Shown: positions 24,709 through 53,839 of the stretch, piece after piece | Position numbering within the stretch: position 1 is the stretch's first letter | Layout of the letters: each line of letters starts with the position of its first letter | Source of the DNA: a virus | Reading direction: 5' to 3' (one strand) | Virus record (IMG/VR): IMGVR_UViG_3300031772_000024 | Coordinates: 1-64,000 of that record | DNA: 64,000 nucleotides | Program-made: the position numbers and the translations under genes | The notes under the pieces: generated by a model | The model's database searches: none | What the model was told of the DNA's origin: nothing | What the model saw: the letters and a program-made list of their open reading frames with translations, nothing else

Positions 24709-25611
24709 ATGTTCCCTACGATGGCAATGCAGACCCAGCAGGTCTCCAACGAGGTGAAGCAAAAGATCATCTCGGAGTACATCAAGACGGCCGCCGGCCG
24801 CGCGAAGCTCGCTGCTTCGATGATCCAGCCGCTCCGCCTCCGCCGTGACTACACGGCAGTCGGCCGCAAGACGTTCCTCGTCGAGCAGCTTCCGGACGGC
24901 GCTCTTCCCATCTACGACAAGGATCCGGATGTTACGGCCTTTGTCGTCGGCGAAGAAGGCGAGAACATCCTCGCGATCCAGAAGCCGCGCCGCGTGATCT
25001 TCCCGCTGTTCGAGGTCGCCTCGAACCCGGAGATCCCGCTCACGCAGATCAAGGAGCGTCGCTTCGACCTCATCGAGCGCAGCCAGGACCTCGCGAAGGC
25101 GCAGATCCAGGCGGCGGAAGATGAGCGCGTGTTCGCGGTCCTCGACAGCATCGCTGTCTCGGGCTTCGACACCCTCCCTGGCCAGACGAACCCGGACGTG
25201 GCCGTCGTCGCCCCGATCTCGCCCAGCGTCCTCGCGGATGCCTTCGCCGAGATCGAGCGTCACGACCTCAGGGTTGCTCGCATCTACATGAACGCTGTCG
25301 ACTACGCGGACATCCGCAAGTTCGGCCGCGACATCCTCGACATCGAGTCGCAGGCGACCCTCCTCAAGACGGGCCTCCAGGCCGTCCTCTGGGGCGCGCA
25401 GATCATCACGAGCCGCCTCGTGCCGGTCGGCTTCGTGTACGTGTGTTGCGAGCCCGAGAACTTCGGTCGCTTCCCCGTGCGCACTGAGCTGACGGTGCTC
25501 TCGGCGGACGACGCGAAGGCGCGCACGATCGGCTTCTCGTGCTTTGAAAATGTCGGCGTCGGGGCCTTCAACCCCCGTGGCCTCACCCGCATGGTCGTCC
25601 AGCGCTTCTGA
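24709..25611 (+). CDS. Major capsid protein (HK97-type)
   Basis: 300 aa from ATG 24709 (AAAGGGCAAAAGTC upstream). Features typical of the family: a helical N-terminal arm (EVKQKIISEYIKTAAGRAKL), the E-loop/strand region VGRKTFLVEQLPDGALPIYD (about 51-70), a long spine helix (RSQDLAKAQIQAAEDERVFAVLD) and a C-terminal P-domain with IYMNAVDYADIRKFGRDILD. It is the terminal gene of the head operon and is followed by a GNRA-capped hairpin. A near copy of residues about 48-83 occurs at the end of the gene at 33151-33579. Confidence 0.85.
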   Translation: MFPTMAMQTQQVSNEVKQKIISEYIKTAAGRAKLAASMIQPLRLRRDYTAVGRKTFLVEQLPDGALPIYDKDPDVTAFVVGEEGENILAIQKPRRVIFPLFEVASNPEIPLTQIKERRFDLIERSQDLAKAQIQAAEDERVFAVLDSIAVSGFDTLPGQTNPDVAVVAPISPSVLADAFAEIERHDLRVARIYMNAVDYADIRKFGRDILDIESQATLLKTGLQAVLWGAQIITSRLVPVGFVYVCCEPENFGRFPVRTELTVLSADDAKARTIGFSCFENVGVGAFNPRGLTRMVVQRF

Positions 25612-25784: not shown

Positions 25785-26735
25785 GTGCGCGCCATCCCTT
25801 GCCCCATCTCTCCGAAGGAACTTCGTCGCCTCTACGTGACTCGGAAGCTGACGGACGAAGAGATCGTTGCCCGCCTCGGGGAGGGCGCGACGTTGAAGAG
25901 GGTCCGGTCCTGGCGAAAGCGGTTAGGCATCGAGACCATCTCCCCGCTCGACCGTCACAAGGTGACGCCAGTTGAAGGGAAGCTGCGGTCGCTTCTCGTT
26001 GGCTCGATGCTCGGTGATGGCCGACTTCATCGGACGCCGAACGGGGCACGCTTCATGGAGAACCACGCCGACGACCAGCGCGAGTACATCGCGTGGAAGG
26101 TCAAGCAGTGGGGTCCGTGGGTGAAGGGCGGCTTGAACCCCGTGACGTGGACGAACGACGGAGGCACGTTCCAGGGCTGGCGGTTCCACACGGTCTGCCA
26201 TCCGTCACTCATCGAGTGGCACGCACGCTTCTACGACGAGACGGGACCCAAGCGCCTTTCACGCGAGGTCATCGACTACGTGGACGACTTCGCCCTTGCC
26301 GTTTGGTTCATGGACGATGGCTCCGTTGGTTGGTGGCCGCGCATCACGTTCGGCATGGACGACGTGAGCCAAGCCATGGCTCTCGCGATTTTTGAGCGCT
26401 TCGGTTTCGCGCCTCGGTGGCAGATCCACAAGGAGCGGACGGGCGACTTCATCTTCGAGGGCGAAGATCAGGCGGAGCGCTTCCTCGCGCTCGTGAAGCC
26501 GCACATGCCGAAGACGATGGAGCGGAAGCTCACACACGGCTTTCAAGGCCCGCACTACCAAATGCGCAAGGCATTGACGCCCGAGGCGCTCCGAGAGTTA
26601 GCCTCGAAGGGGGTGCCCATTCGGCGCATGGCTGTCATGCTCGGGCAGACCCCGAGTAGCGTCAACCGCTTCCTTAAGCACTTCGGCATCGAGCACCCGC
26701 GTAAGGTTGGGCGTCCGCTGCGCAATGCGGTGTAG
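25785..26735 (+). CDS. Free-standing LAGLIDADG homing endonuclease
   Basis: 316 aa, start taken as GTG 25785 (uncertain). Two LAGLIDADG helices are clear: LLVGSMLGDGRLHR (about residues 69-82) and LAVWFMDDGSVGW (about 168-180). They are flanked by an N-terminal helix-turn-helix (LTDEEIVARLGEGATLKRV) and a C-terminal one (RRMAVMLGQTPSSVNRFLKHF). It sits just downstream of the capsid gene and its terminator, not inside an intron I can see. It would cut an allele lacking the insertion and promote its own spread. Its last codons contain the GGTGTA motif for the next gene. Confidence 0.9.
   Translation: MRAIPCPISPKELRRLYVTRKLTDEEIVARLGEGATLKRVRSWRKRLGIETISPLDRHKVTPVEGKLRSLLVGSMLGDGRLHRTPNGARFMENHADDQREYIAWKVKQWGPWVKGGLNPVTWTNDGGTFQGWRFHTVCHPSLIEWHARFYDETGPKRLSREVIDYVDDFALAVWFMDDGSVGWWPRITFGMDDVSQAMALAIFERFGFAPRWQIHKERTGDFIFEGEDQAERFLALVKPHMPKTMERKLTHGFQGPHYQMRKALTPEALRELASKGVPIRRMAVMLGQTPSSVNRFLKHFGIEHPRKVGRPLRNAV
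26729..26734 (+). promoter_or_regulatory. GGTGTA motif, 11 nt before ATG 26746
   Basis: The motif overlaps the last codons and TAG stop of the LAGLIDADG gene and lies 11 nt before ATG 26746 with no Shine-Dalgarno sequence between. Confidence 0.55.
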
Positions 26736-30259: not shown

Positions 30260-30925
30260 ATGCATGAAAGCTGGAAGGCCGCCCTCTCCGATGAACTGGC
30301 AAAGCCCTACGTCAATGACCTGCTTGACTTCGTTCAGCGCGAACGGGAGAGCCAGACGGTCTTCCCGCCCAAGGGGGAGGTTTTTACGGCCTTGGAGACC
30401 CCCTTCGATAGCGTTCGAGTCGTCATCCTAGGCCAGGACCCCTACCATGGCCCCGGGCAGGCGCACGGGCTTAGTTTCTCGGTTAAACCCGGCGTGGTGC
30501 TGCCTCCATCCCTGCTCAACATCTACAAGGAACTGAAGTCAGACGTAGGGTTCACTCCTCCCGGACACGGCTGTCTACTAGACTGGGCTCGACAGGGCGT
30601 GCTACTGCTGAATGCAACGCTCACGGTTCGAGCGCGTGAGGCCGGATCCCACCAAGGCAAGGGCTGGGAGACCCTCACCGATGAGATCATCCGCAAGCTG
30701 AGTTCACAGAATAGACCCCTCGTGTTCGTTCTCTGGGGTCGGTATGCGCGCGATAAGAAGGCGCTCATCGACACCAGCAAGCATGTGATTGTCGAGTCGG
30801 CACACCCCTCCCCGATGTCTGCAAGCAGCGGGTTCTTTGGGAGCAAGCCTTTCTCAAAGGTCAATACGGCCCTCGTTTCCTTCAACGAGAGGCCCATCGA
30901 CTGGCAGATCGCCCCACTGGAGTAG
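30260..30925 (+). CDS. ung: Uracil-DNA glycosylase (family 1)
   Basis: 221 aa from ATG 30260. It removes uracil from DNA as the first step of base excision repair. The water-activating loop GQDPYHGP (58-65, catalytic Asp60), the LLLNATLTVR segment, and the leucine-loop motif AHPSPMSA (His at about 182) are all present, at family-typical length. With dNTP-related genes at 51.9-54.9 kb, it suggests the phage keeps uracil out of its DNA rather than using it as a modified base. Confidence 0.95.
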   Translation: MHESWKAALSDELAKPYVNDLLDFVQRERESQTVFPPKGEVFTALETPFDSVRVVILGQDPYHGPGQAHGLSFSVKPGVVLPPSLLNIYKELKSDVGFTPPGHGCLLDWARQGVLLLNATLTVRAREAGSHQGKGWETLTDEIIRKLSSQNRPLVFVLWGRYARDKKALIDTSKHVIVESAHPSPMSASSGFFGSKPFSKVNTALVSFNERPIDWQIAPLE

Positions 30926-31311: not shown

Positions 31312-31890
31312 ATGAGCATCCACGGGAAGAACGCACGCAAAGAAGGCCGGGCGCCCGCGGTCGCTCTTTGGAACCCACGCTTCCCGTTCAACGTGGGGAG
31401 CGCGGTCCGGGCCGCAAGTTGCTTCGGGATCGAGCAGGTGTGGTTCACGGGAGAACGTGTCCAGCTCGCTCTCGACGAGAAAAAGCGCCTTCCCCGTGAG
31501 GAGCGGATGAAGGGCTACAAAGAGGTCGAGCTTCGGAACTACGACCACGTATTCGACCAGTACGACCTGACGCAGGTCACGCCCGTCGCGGTCGAGCTGC
31601 GGCCCAACGCGGAGTCCCTCCCCGCTTTCGAGCACCCGGAGAACCCCGTCTACTTCTTCGGCCCCGAGGACGGGACGATCCCGCAGTCTGTCCTTCGGCA
31701 GTGCCACCGCTTCGTCGTGATTCCGACGCGTCACTGTGTGAATCTGGCGGCGGCGATCTACCTCGTCCTTTACGATCGGATGGTGAAGACGGCTACGGGG
31801 CCGCTCACGATTCGGGACACCCTTGCCGAGTCTCGGTTCGACTTCGCCCACGGCGACCTCTCCGACAAGCTCGGCCTCACCATGGCTTAG
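31312..31890 (+). CDS. SpoU/TrmH-family RNA 2'-O-methyltransferase
   Basis: 192 aa from ATG 31312. SPOUT-class signatures: motif 1 FNVGSAVRAASCFG with the conserved Asn/Arg, motif 2 YFFGPEDGTIP, and motif 3 HCVNLAAAIYLVLYDR, which forms the AdoMet-binding trefoil knot. The family methylates 2'-OH groups of tRNA or 23S rRNA. It ends 2 nt before the PcfJ-like gene. The RNA target cannot be told from sequence. Confidence 0.88.
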   Translation: MSIHGKNARKEGRAPAVALWNPRFPFNVGSAVRAASCFGIEQVWFTGERVQLALDEKKRLPREERMKGYKEVELRNYDHVFDQYDLTQVTPVAVELRPNAESLPAFEHPENPVYFFGPEDGTIPQSVLRQCHRFVVIPTRHCVNLAAAIYLVLYDRMVKTATGPLTIRDTLAESRFDFAHGDLSDKLGLTMA

Positions 31891-31892
31891 GA

Positions 31893-33176
31893 ATGCGCAG
31901 AAGCCTTCGAGAAGCAGCGAGACAGACCGCCGAAGCCCGTCGACAGTCCAAGGCCAGCCGTGTGGCGTCCGACGCCGAAGCGGCGCGGAAGCGGCTGGAA
32001 GGCGTTCAGAAGGCGCTCGCGGGCTCCAAGACGCAGAGCATCGTCGATGCGATGTTCGACGGGTCGGGGAAGTGTCTTGGCTTTCGCTTCCCCGCCGAGG
32101 ACCCCTCGCCGGAAAACCTTCGGGGCGTTCTCCGGGTCGTCGAGCAACGGGCCGCCCGCCTTCTGACGACGGACTACGTCAAGGCGATCAGCAACGCCTA
32201 CCCGCTGACGCCTCTCCGGTCCATCGAGGCGTGGGAGCCCCGCGGGAAGGGCCGGGACACGCTGTTCATCTCGCTCATGGAGCACCTCTACGCGAAGTTC
32301 CCCATGCCGCCGTTCATTTGGTCGGCGTTCTTCGATGCCGAGATCACCAAGCTGCGCCCGGTCGTCGGTCACGTTGCGGCGGGCGGAAGCCTCCACGAGG
32401 CCGTGAAGACGAAGCTCTTGCCGCTGCCTTTCACCCGTCGCATGTGCCACGAGTTCATGCAGACGGAGAGCGACGTGCGGTTTCTCACCGCCCTCCGTCG
32501 AGTCCAGGTGCGGACCTCGGGAGGCCACGAAAGGCTCTTGTCCGCGTGGCTCGCGGCGCCCCCCGGGCGTTCGATCCTCCAGCCCGAGGACGAGGACTTC
32601 TGGAGCACCGTTCTCGACTGGATGGCGCGGAACCCGATGCTGGACCCCACCCAGGTGGGGCCGCTCGTAGACTACATCATGACGCGCCGCCGCGAGGACC
32701 GGGCCTTCTCGATGAAGGGGCGCACGGTCCTCGCCCTTATGCGGGACATGGCCGCGTGGCATGGCGATCTGGCCAAGACGAAGAACATCAAGGGCGCCCA
32801 CTTCAAGCCCTCGGGGTACCGGGCGGGGCACTTCGATCGCTCCAAGAAGGAGGAGTGGGGCACGCCCCAACTCAACATCTGGCACGTCCGGGAGATCCTC
32901 TCCGGGAACGATCTGGCCGAAGAGGGACGCAAGATGAAGCACTGCGTCTACTCGTACGCGAGCCGGGTGCAGAGCGGCGACACCTCGATCTGGTCGATGA
33001 CCCGTGAGACCTACGGCGGGACGGAACGCGCCCTCACGATCGAAGTCCAGAACGCTACTCGTCGAATCGTACAGGCCCGCGGCCCTTACAACAAGCAACC
33101 GAGCGCGCTTGAACACACGGTTCTCGTCCAGTGGGCGGGCCTGAACAACTTCACTCTTTCATTATCACGCTGGTGA
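31893..33176 (+). CDS. PcfJ-like protein
   Basis: 427 aa from ATG 31893, 2 nt after the previous stop. The C-terminal 120 residues match the PcfJ domain: LAEEGRKMKHCVYSYASRV, ERALTIEVQNATRRIVQARG, YNKQPSALEH. PcfJ proteins occur on conjugative plasmids and many phages, and their biochemical role is not settled. The N-terminal two-thirds is basic and helical. The 3' end overlaps the convergent zinc-ribbon gene by 26 nt. Confidence 0.82.
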   Translation: MRRSLREAARQTAEARRQSKASRVASDAEAARKRLEGVQKALAGSKTQSIVDAMFDGSGKCLGFRFPAEDPSPENLRGVLRVVEQRAARLLTTDYVKAISNAYPLTPLRSIEAWEPRGKGRDTLFISLMEHLYAKFPMPPFIWSAFFDAEITKLRPVVGHVAAGGSLHEAVKTKLLPLPFTRRMCHEFMQTESDVRFLTALRRVQVRTSGGHERLLSAWLAAPPGRSILQPEDEDFWSTVLDWMARNPMLDPTQVGPLVDYIMTRRREDRAFSMKGRTVLALMRDMAAWHGDLAKTKNIKGAHFKPSGYRAGHFDRSKKEEWGTPQLNIWHVREILSGNDLAEEGRKMKHCVYSYASRVQSGDTSIWSMTRETYGGTERALTIEVQNATRRIVQARGPYNKQPSALEHTVLVQWAGLNNFTLSLSRW

Positions 33177-33579
33177 CATCGGGATCCCGGTCATAGGTCG
33201 GCAGTGCCCCAGGCGGCAGGGGCTCTATCAGGAACATGTTGCGGCCGATCGCCTGGTAGAACCCCATGTAACGTTTGCACGTTCCGCAGACGTACCCGCT
33301 TCGTGGCCCTGAGCGAAGGAACGCGTTCAGCATGAGGATGGGGGCGGCTTTCACCCGCCACTTCTTCAACTGCTTCTTTCGGATGCGGCGGTTGCGACTA
33401 CGCGGCGGCTGCCCAAGGAGTTCTTTCGGCGGGGGCTCCATGGGCCGTTCGTGCAGCAACCCTCCGCATGTGCAGTGAAGCTTGGTAGGTCGACCAAGCA
33501 CGACTTCCTTCTTGCGGCTCTCCTCCTGACGGATAGCGGCGGCGATGAGCGCTGACTTGATATCGTTGGATATGTCCAT
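33151..33579 (-). CDS. Zinc-ribbon protein ending in a capsid-derived peptide
   Basis: 142 aa on the minus strand from ATG 33579 (AGAGGCGG upstream). Residues about 33-45 hold CTCGG and about 98-103 CGTCK, together a zinc ribbon around a very basic segment (RSRNRRIRKKQLKKW). The last about 36 residues, from FYQAIGRNMFLIEP through GALPTYDRDPDVT to the stop, align without gaps to major capsid residues about 47-83, at about 21 of 36 identical. It may bind capsid partners or the prohead by mimicry; this is inference. It is divergent from 33677 and convergent with the PcfJ-like gene. Confidence 0.75.
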   Translation of the reverse strand: MDISNDIKSALIAAAIRQEESRKKEVVLGRPTKLHCTCGGLLHERPMEPPPKELLGQPPRSRNRRIRKKQLKKWRVKAAPILMLNAFLRSGPRSGYVCGTCKRYMGFYQAIGRNMFLIEPLPPGALPTYDRDPDVTSVIMKE

Positions 33580-34206: not shown

Positions 34207-34818
34207 GTGGAAACCTTCGGGATCACGGGTGGCATTGCGACCGGGAAAAGCACGGTCACGAAACTCGTGCGCGAGGCCGGGGTTCCTGTCGTGGACCTTG
34301 ACATCGTCGCTCGGGAGGTGGTCGAGCCTGGGCTGCCCTGCCTTGCGGCCTTGGTTCAACGCTTCGGCGCTTCGATGCTCACGCCCGAGGGCACACTCGA
34401 TCGAAAGGCGCTGAGAGCGCATGTCTTCGCAGACCGAGCGGAGCTAGCGGCGCTCGACGCGTGCATAGGGCCTTTCATCGCGAAGCGCATGTGGGAGTGC
34501 CTCGTGGAGCACGAGGCAGCGGGTCACGTGCTCGCGGCTGTCGATGGTGCCCTCATGGTCGAGCAAAACATGATCTTTCGACCGCTACTCGTAGTGACGA
34601 CTTCGTCGGAGATCCAACTTCAGCGCCTCATGGCGCGTGATGGGTTCTCGGTGGAGGAAGCCACCTGGCGGATTGCGCATCAGATGCCCGTCGCCGAGAA
34701 GGCGCGCTACGCTGACATCCAGATCGACACATCATGCTCGCTAGAAGAGTTGAAGCTCCGTGTGGGGGACACCCTGAACACGGTTCGTGAGATGATCCGG
34801 TCGAAGAACACAACTTGA
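34207..34818 (+). CDS. coaE: Dephospho-CoA kinase
   Basis: 203 aa from GTG 34207. It performs the last step of coenzyme A synthesis: ATP-dependent 3'-phosphorylation of dephospho-CoA. Walker A is ITGGIATGKST (6-16). Asp in the VDLDIVAREVVEPG segment matches the substrate-site Asp, and RLMARDGFSVEEATWRI is the family's lid region. The length equals bacterial CoaE. A metabolic gene of this pathway is unusual in a phage. Alone in the pathway here. Confidence 0.9.
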   Translation: METFGITGGIATGKSTVTKLVREAGVPVVDLDIVAREVVEPGLPCLAALVQRFGASMLTPEGTLDRKALRAHVFADRAELAALDACIGPFIAKRMWECLVEHEAAGHVLAAVDGALMVEQNMIFRPLLVVTTSSEIQLQRLMARDGFSVEEATWRIAHQMPVAEKARYADIQIDTSCSLEELKLRVGDTLNTVREMIRSKNTT

Positions 34819-51938: not shown

Positions 51939-52676
51939 ATGGGCAAGCGACTCAGGTTCCTCACGGACGTAGATGAGGTACTAGGGGACTTTCAGATACC
52001 TGCGTTACGGATCATGGAGCGCATCACGGGGCGTAGATACACCCCCGAGTCGTTCACGGAATGGGACATGTTCTCGCTCGTGTCGGACGAGGAGAAGCGC
52101 GCTGTCTTCGCCGAGATCGAGAAGCCTGGCTGGTGCCAGAACGTCCAGCCGTTGCCCGGTGCAATTGACTTCATCAAGGAGGTTCGGAAGCACTGCGATG
52201 TCTTCGTGGTGACCTCGCCCTTCCACAGCAACACGTGGGTGGCCGAACGCTATGCCTGGCTGGCGAAGCACTTCGACTTCAAGTCGTCGGAGGTCGTGCA
52301 CACGAGCGCGAAGCACCTCGTCGTGGGCGACGTGTTCCTCGACGACAACCCGAGCAACATCGATAAGTGGTGCGCCGCACACCCTGGCAAACTCGGGATG
52401 CTTTGGCACATCCCAAACACCCGGCTCATGCCGTACGACCACGTCCGTGTCCGGTCGTGGGAGGAAGCCTTGAAGCGGACACTGGACTTCCAGGAGAGGC
52501 CCTCGGTTTACGACCTGCTTCGGAAGGCCGAGTGGCACGTTCAAGAAGACAGGGATGGTGTCAGCTACAACTGCTTCGAGTGCGGGGGGTCTGCATTTGC
52601 AGCCATGCACAAGCCTGGGTGCCAGGTCGATGCGATCTTGAACGCGGTGTATGGGCCCGCGCGGAGGCTCCCATGA
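51939..52676 (+). CDS. HAD-family 5'(3')-deoxyribonucleotidase-like protein
   Basis: 245 aa from ATG 51939 (GGAGGTGGC upstream). HAD motif I LTDVDEVLGDF has the nucleophile Asp and the DxD pair, motif II is FVVTSPF, and motif IV VGDVFLDDNPSNI. These fit the deoxyribonucleotidase branch that removes phosphate from dNMPs. The C-terminus adds a zinc-like CFECGGSAFAAMHKPGC. It ends overlapping the thymidylate synthase start, in a nucleotide-metabolism cluster. Confidence 0.82.
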   Translation: MGKRLRFLTDVDEVLGDFQIPALRIMERITGRRYTPESFTEWDMFSLVSDEEKRAVFAEIEKPGWCQNVQPLPGAIDFIKEVRKHCDVFVVTSPFHSNTWVAERYAWLAKHFDFKSSEVVHTSAKHLVVGDVFLDDNPSNIDKWCAAHPGKLGMLWHIPNTRLMPYDHVRVRSWEEALKRTLDFQERPSVYDLLRKAEWHVQEDRDGVSYNCFECGGSAFAAMHKPGCQVDAILNAVYGPARRLP

Positions 52677-53839
52677 ACCCGTATCTAGCACTCGTCCGTC
52701 ATGTGCTGGCGGAAGGGACTCGGAAAGAGAACCGGACCGGCGTCGATACAAAAAGCACGTTCAACTACAACTATGAGATCGACCTCCGTCGAGGCTTCCC
52801 ACTCCTGACCACGAAGGCGGTGAGTTGGAAGAACATTGTGGTGGAACTTTTGTGGTTCCTTTCCGGTCAGACAGACATCGCAATTCTGAAGCGCCACGGG
52901 TGCAAGTTCTGGGATGCGTGGGCGGACCCCGAGACCGGGCGCGTGCCCAGTGCATACGGGTCGTTCTGGCGGCAGTTTCCGGTTCATGCCCGAGCCGAGA
53001 CCCCCAAGTTCTGTCCCGATTGCGGCGGGCGCATGGACATGGCTGGTCGCCCTCCAGCCCATATTCCCAAGTGTGACTATCTCAAACGCTCGACGCATGA
53101 TGTGGGTGGCTTCAACGACCAGATCCGGTGGGTCCTCGACGAGATGAAGAGGAACCCGATGTCCCGCCGCATGGTCGTGAGCGCGTGGGCGCCGGGCAAC
53201 GCGCAGTTGAGCAAGCTCCCGCCTTGCCACTGCCTCTTTGCGTTCAACGTACAGAACGACCCGCCGCCCGAGTATGTGCACTACGGGCACAACTACGGGC
53301 ATGACCCTGCGTGCAACACCGCTCCTGGCACGGAAGGATATGGGCTTCTTCCACACGGGGAGGGGATGCGGCAGGGGCTTCGGTGGTGCCCTGAGTGCGC
53401 GAAGCTGATCTCGTACCTCAAGGACCCGCCCCCGAAGGACGACCCCAAGAGCCTTTGCCTCCATCTCACGCAGCGATCGGCGGATGTATTTTTGGGCGTA
53501 CCTTACAACATCGCTAGCTATGCCCTGCTCCTGCACCTGTTCTCGCGCTTCACGGGCATCGCCCCGGGTATCTTCGCGCACACGCTGATCGACGCGCACA
53601 TCTACACGAGCAAGCCCGATGGGAGCCAGGCCGAGTACGACCACGTGCCTGCTTTGCGCGAGCAACTCTCTAGGTCGCCACGTTCGTTGCCACGCCTGAT
53701 CATCGATGACCGCATCAAAGGGCTTGACGACATTGAGCGCTTGCTAGAACCAGCCGTGACCACCGAGGAGGTCATGAGCTACTTCATACTGGACGGCTAC
53801 GATCCGCACCCCGCGCTGCACGGTAGAGTGGCTGTATGA
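52673..53839 (+). CDS. thyA: Thymidylate synthase (ThyA) with zinc-like insertions
   Basis: 388 aa from ATG 52673. Makes dTMP from dUMP and methylene-tetrahydrofolate. Core motifs: NRTGVDTKSTF, the catalytic Cys in KLPPCHCLF (C185), QRSADVFLGVPYNIASYALL and HTLIDAHIY. Two family-atypical insertions are present: residues about 110-140 with C114, C117, H130 and C134, and about 199-260 with H, C and WCPECAKL. These look like zinc knuckles. The length is about 120 aa above standard ThyA. Works with the DHFR downstream. Confidence 0.93.
   Translation: MNPYLALVRHVLAEGTRKENRTGVDTKSTFNYNYEIDLRRGFPLLTTKAVSWKNIVVELLWFLSGQTDIAILKRHGCKFWDAWADPETGRVPSAYGSFWRQFPVHARAETPKFCPDCGGRMDMAGRPPAHIPKCDYLKRSTHDVGGFNDQIRWVLDEMKRNPMSRRMVVSAWAPGNAQLSKLPPCHCLFAFNVQNDPPPEYVHYGHNYGHDPACNTAPGTEGYGLLPHGEGMRQGLRWCPECAKLISYLKDPPPKDDPKSLCLHLTQRSADVFLGVPYNIASYALLLHLFSRFTGIAPGIFAHTLIDAHIYTSKPDGSQAEYDHVPALREQLSRSPRSLPRLIIDDRIKGLDDIERLLEPAVTTEEVMSYFILDGYDPHPALHGRVAV

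Follow-up and report, generated by a model that had tools for sequence, protein, structure and literature searches.

Pieces of the major capsid protein in a zinc-ribbon-like protein of a probable megaphage: a candidate capsid mimic

Known capsid mimics, tags and sensors

Capsid-derived sequence has been domesticated as a mimic in Fv1, a retroviral Gag-derived restriction factor that is an animal host gene. Whereas Fv1 is a near full-length Gag-like protein, the product of the phage gene described here consists of short pieces of the major capsid protein (MCP) fused to other domains. In its logic, an MCP-derived tail on unrelated small proteins is comparable to the encapsulin cargo-loading peptides, which are flexible C-terminal tags on unrelated small proteins with an HK97-fold shell as their partner, although to our knowledge these peptides were not copied from the shell protein. 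The capsid-redirecting proteins SaPI CpmA/CpmB and P4 Sid, which likewise are not known to be MCP-derived, are small accessory proteins that, in acting at the MCP/scaffold interface, would engage the same surfaces.

A number of bacterial immune systems recognise phages by their capsid protein, a component that a phage cannot easily alter. The MCP triggers CapRel, an MCP peptide (Gol, of T4 gp23) activates Lit (PMC9712102), and Thoeris senses the MCP, with an escape mutation in the E-loop (PMC11312562). In phages that have lost acb2, mutations in the MCP also allow escape from CBASS (PMC10419184). Common to Lit, CapRel and Thoeris is that the sensors recognise short or local MCP regions (PMC9712102, PMC11312562); there, however, the MCP itself is the trigger, whereas in the phage studied here an MCP piece sits on a separate protein. 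In 80alpha, the N-arm helix is where the scaffold makes contact and the E-loop folds around the adjacent P-domain, and SaPI1 CpmB is an example of competition by phage satellites at the scaffold site (PMC5644958). We found no descriptions of MCP-fragment chimeras in the open-licence literature, which is a weak negative.

A chimera of capsid pieces and a zinc-ribbon-like module

The window analysed here is a 64,000-nucleotide stretch of a 67.9-kb virus record, which is probably a megaphage fragment because records of relatives with near-identical MCPs reach 529 kb. Its MCP gene (24709–25611 (+)) encodes a 300-aa homologue of phage G gp27 that matches phrog_2522 ("major head protein") at E=4e-52 and the solved homologue 6WKK at E=2e-59. 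The window MCP is 83% identical to a protein of a 485-kb megaphage, 47% to that of Tunturi_5 and 37.5% to phage G gp27, and MCPs are ~89–98% identical across the 80 contigs retrieved. A LAGLIDADG homing endonuclease gene (25785–26735 (+); PF03161, E=4e-22) lies directly 3' of the MCP gene.

The chimera gene, which was taken from the ORF listing and its translation, occupies 33151–33579 (-) with the stop included, starts with ATG, encodes a 142-aa zinc-ribbon-like/capsid-fragment protein and has a full-length relative in another megaphage. Residues 108–142 (33154–33258 (-)) align without gaps to MCP residues 48–82 (24850–24954 (+)), with 21 of 35 identical and 27 of 35 positive (tblastn against the window, E=7e-11). 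The initial annotation had placed a copy of about 36 residues, about 21 of them identical, at MCP ~47–83, which agrees with this alignment to within one residue. The tail also matches 6WKK (E=1.2e-5), and none of 5,000 shuffled tails reached its score (120, against a shuffled maximum of 48), so the poor alignment significance that the annotation had named as a ground for rejecting the copy is not what we observe. The segment is called the E-loop here from its position between the N-arm and the spine helix in the HK97 fold.

A second resemblance, missed by the initial annotation, lies at the other end of the protein, where residues 3–24 (33508–33573 (-)) align without gaps to residues 12–33 of the MCP N-arm (24742–24807 (+)). 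Under a position-restricted MCP profile, this N-terminus ranks 6 of 1,835 gene N-termini, with no shuffle out of 2,000 as high; those that outrank it are two MCPs, two known MCP-fragment ORFs and one N-arm-like ORF (G042, 197327–197578). Taken alone as a HMMER domain, the match does not reach significance, and we consider the N-terminus to be probably, not certainly, N-arm-like.

Residues 31–107 (33259–33489 (-)) form a zinc-ribbon-like module with a basic helical insertion. The assignment rests on sequence, namely on C36xC38 and C98xxC101, which are kept in the relative, together with predicted hairpins; the Pfam zinc-ribbon match is weak and below the cut-off, and the module may bind zinc. 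Also conserved between the two proteins is the basic motif NRRIxKKQLK. In a low-confidence AlphaFold model (pLDDT 54), a helix spans residues 5–21 and hairpins span 31–44 and 95–106, while the tail is predicted to be disordered (pLDDT ~30).

The MCP elements of the chimera are limited to ~12–33 and 48–82, the spine helix, P-domain core and A-domain being absent, and in its predicted composition the protein is a fragment chimera and not an MCP. It shares with the HK97-fold MCPs of the phage G gp27 family (phrog_2522, 6WKK) a tail homologous to residues 48–82 and an N-terminus like residues 12–33, but it differs from them in having a zinc-ribbon-like module between the two parts and in being encoded by a separate minus-strand gene. 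The chimera is best described as an MCP N-terminal segment in which such a module takes the place of the short segment that separates the N-arm from the E-loop.

Only one full relative was found in the searched viral collection. It is encoded in a 407-kb megaphage record, 198 kb from the MCP gene of that record, and is 47% identical to the window protein over residues 5–137, tail included. The tail is the best-conserved part of the pair (22/31 identical, versus 39/72 in the zinc ribbon); absence of the tail in relatives, which the annotation had held would speak against the idea, is therefore not seen in this diverged protein. Direct protein searches with the window protein gave no match in viral contigs or in bacterial and archaeal genomes, and among annotated phages they returned only MCPs or an unannotated MCP locus. 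The zinc-ribbon part had no second copy in the first 82 loci, which are mostly MCP flanks, and almost all relatives lack the chimera gene.

Comparing the window tail with its counterpart in the window MCP, we found codon positions 1, 2 and 3 to be identical at 25, 27 and 15 of 35 codons, respectively. Identical codons are used at 9 of the 21 shared residues, where 9.4 are expected from codon usage alone; over 12 MCP fragments, the same-codon count is 136/285 versus 111 expected. A count at chance level for the tail indicates that its synonymous sites are saturated and that the copy is old, kept as a peptide and constrained at the protein level. Recent DNA duplication as the origin of the tail is ruled out by this codon comparison.

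The chimera gene sits in a non-structural region. Its surroundings include genes for CoaE, a SpoU-type RNA methylase, a PcfJ-like protein and uracil-DNA glycosylase (34207–34818, 31312–31890, 31701–33176 and 30260–30925 (+), respectively), of which the dephospho-CoA kinase (CoaE) gene is a metabolic gene unexpected in a phage.

Capsid fragments across the megaphage clade

An N-arm/E-loop profile run over 45 records matched further non-MCP ORFs, and pieces were also found elsewhere with a separate profile for the remaining MCP, by which we rejected the idea that reuse is limited to the E-loop. In a set of 42,339 ORFs (3.07 Mb of DNA from related phages), the MCP profile matches 22 non-MCP ORFs at E<0.01, and the reversed profile matches no ORF; the reversed-sequence control was still 0 at E<0.01 after profile iteration. 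At least one fragment at E<0.01, with E-values taken per genome, is present in 10 of the 15 records longer than 200 kb. Several of the fragment ORFs are short or weak matches, and some may be decaying.

When fragments were counted for the 74 core families of five large records, using simple gene calling in which some antisense ORFs were included, the MCP had the most (11, against a median of 0). This rejects the view that many core genes shed fragments. The four other core families with at least six fragments have domains common to conserved structural genes, and the preference for the MCP as donor is striking and near-exclusive. Most fragment genes lie 50–300 kb from the MCP gene, and each fragment family tested has only two or three members among ~530 MCP contigs, a rarity that, by analogy, may be likened to that of fast-turnover arms-race genes. 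Judged from its sequence, the window protein belongs to this class of MCP-fragment chimeras, as it is an accessory protein other than the MCP, includes an MCP piece in frame and is conserved at the protein level. These data suggest that the megaphage clade assembles accessory proteins out of parts of its MCP and that the window protein is one case of many, which the initial annotation had not seen.

The fragments occur in several architectures. C-terminal tails from MCP ~41–82, with ~41–73 as the common stretch, are found on at least five N-terminal groups without significant mutual similarity: the zinc ribbon of the window protein and G027, a C/H finger (L098/L099), L097, L100/L103 and L105. 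In L087, G009, G042 and G010, the N-arm/E-loop piece is internal and is followed by a C-terminus that looks SH3-like; a search for this domain in further ORFs returned only its own seeds. There are also small ORFs with an A-domain, C-terminal or N-arm piece only, several of them weak.

In a third arrangement, seen in three proteins, a circular permutation joins the C-terminal "NPRG" strand of the MCP to MCP 93–127 (G005, G012, G015). Permuted MCP-derived proteins of this kind, without N-arm and E-loop, are encoded in L194 (12440–13081 (-)), L196 (8453–9166 (-)) and L198 (8984–9784 (+)), all of which end in a conserved "RS(V/I)WEALVDLDLVD" motif; a structure model of a permuted MCP protein had a pLDDT of 44. 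A similar permuted join is present in gp172 of Tunturi_5 (XOB77615.1; L203 7433–7825 (-)), an unannotated hypothetical protein of an isolated jumbo phage that has a hydrophobic N-terminus and whose permuted piece resembles the phage's own MCP.

Finally, an Acb2/Tad1 hairpin (PF24729, E=7e-13) is combined with two MCP A-domain copies in G009 and a G013 orthologue, and a shorter form occurs in G001. The corresponding loci are L152 (13875–14777 (+)), L199 (7241–8143 (+)) and L200 (9835–10347 (-)). These anti-CBASS nucleotide sponges are the only Acb2/Tad1 matches over the cut-off in 22 megaphage records, and all three are fused to MCP A-domain copies, two of them as close orthologues (83%). Other Acb2 proteins have been described as compact homohexamers, with no mention of an MCP-like part (PMC10419184).

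Two minor groups were also observed. A 131-aa frame directly 3' of the MCP gene (L102 1520–1912 (+); L024 3175–3567 (+)) has an N-arm-like segment and no E-loop, with equal scores in the two records. Copies of MCP ~254–284 ("PVRTELTVLSADD...IGF") were found with weak scores in L202 (9466–10425 (-)), G042 (70222–71016 (-)) and G020 (262001–262411 (-)), and at least two of these three proteins share another conserved domain.

Possible roles of the capsid pieces

The reading we favour, at a probability of roughly 0.36, is that the chimera is an MCP-piece/foreign-module protein acting as a molecular mimic, most likely as a decoy for a capsid-sensing host defence. With its N-arm-like helix, its zinc-ribbon-like module and the start of the E-loop as a flexible C-terminal tail, the protein would occupy, through the tail and perhaps the helix, the site on a partner that receives that face of the MCP. 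The likeliest partner would be a protein of the host's defences that detects freshly synthesised MCP, and a decoy of this kind would delay abortive infection. The binding, the partner and the decoy action are all proposed here. We favour a decoy because the fragment families are rare, quickly replaced and mostly far from virion genes, because they draw on different parts of the MCP, and because some are anti-CBASS fusions. Against it, the window protein itself has no anti-defence domain; in particular, and unlike the Acb2/Tad1 sponges of the clade, it gave no match to the PF24729 hairpin. The initial annotation had proposed that a capsid fragment on a separate gene could act as a mimic, and this idea gains from the significant homology, from a tail that is kept and best conserved, and from the saturation of synonymous sites.

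More tentatively, the clade as a whole might keep a fast-changing repertoire of MCP pieces, comprising N-arm/E-loop tails, permuted P-domain and A-domain copies and zinc-finger-like, SH3-like and anti-CBASS fusions, as a capsid-mimic layer against capsid sensors.

A close rival of the decoy, although on its own account somewhat unlikely, is a capsid-docking or cargo tag, in which the MCP-derived tail, with the N-arm helix, would co-assemble with the MCP or bind the scaffold and so place the protein in or on the virion. It ranks close behind because the two contact-making elements of the MCP, N-arm and E-loop, are precisely those retained in the window protein, and because the tail position recurs, with the same stretch at the C-terminus of five unrelated small proteins, as expected of a tag; the predicted disorder of the tail also fits. 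Since these elements are also what a ligand of capsid assembly would keep, decoy and docking tag cannot be told apart by sequence. The wider set of chimeras speaks against docking: others use A-domain, C-terminal or permuted P-domain pieces and so have no single docking motif, each family is restricted to very few members of a clade whose MCP is nearly invariant, and most fragment genes are far from virion genes.

MCP pieces scattered over accessory genes would either blunt capsid sensing directly, a reading that can be tested, or constitute a natural capsid-targeting tag. Either reading yields a sequence handle, namely a C-terminal MCP ~41–73 or an Acb2 hairpin with an A-domain copy next to it, that could find anti-defence or virion-targeted proteins among unannotated megaphage genes. 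With gp172, Tunturi_5 provides an isolated phage with a cultured host in which the idea is testable.

Assembly control by the chimera is a possibility that we consider improbable. A regulator or inhibitor of this type would titrate scaffold or MCP for timing, or poison the capsid assembly of a co-infecting phage, and it would fit with N-arm and E-loop being assembly interfaces and with the precedent of SaPI1 CpmB for competition at the scaffold site. However, the near-identity of the MCP across the clade would make such a protein self-toxic, and its gene is in a non-structural region and missing from nearly all relatives. Interference with a competing phage, the other role suggested in the initial annotation, found no specific support for the same reason, as the phage's own capsid would be hit too.

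Equally doubtful is neutral debris, that is, functionless MCP pieces captured by illegitimate recombination, perhaps aided by the adjacent LAGLIDADG endonuclease gene. That the pieces come from all over the MCP, some of them very short, and that a homing endonuclease gene directly follows the MCP gene in the window would agree with such an origin. The codon data make it unlikely, in that amino acids are kept where synonymous sites are saturated. The in-frame fusion to conserved domains, a tail better conserved than the rest of the chimera, the near-absence of other core genes that behave like the MCP and two-sequence data that point to a tail dN/dS below 1 also argue against debris.

Least probable of all is regulatory coupling, in which a zinc-ribbon nucleic-acid binder switched by capsid-assembly partners would tie late expression to assembly: zinc-finger-like domains do recur among the proteins with tails, and a basic RSRNRRIRKKQLKKW stretch is present in the window protein, but other chimeras lack such domains, no DNA or RNA target is apparent, and no promoter- or terminator-like sites were found near the chimera gene.

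Elsewhere in the window, a 490-aa ORF at 52367–53839 (+) is a thymidylate synthase homologue with a split family match, for which an insertion or an intein is possible.
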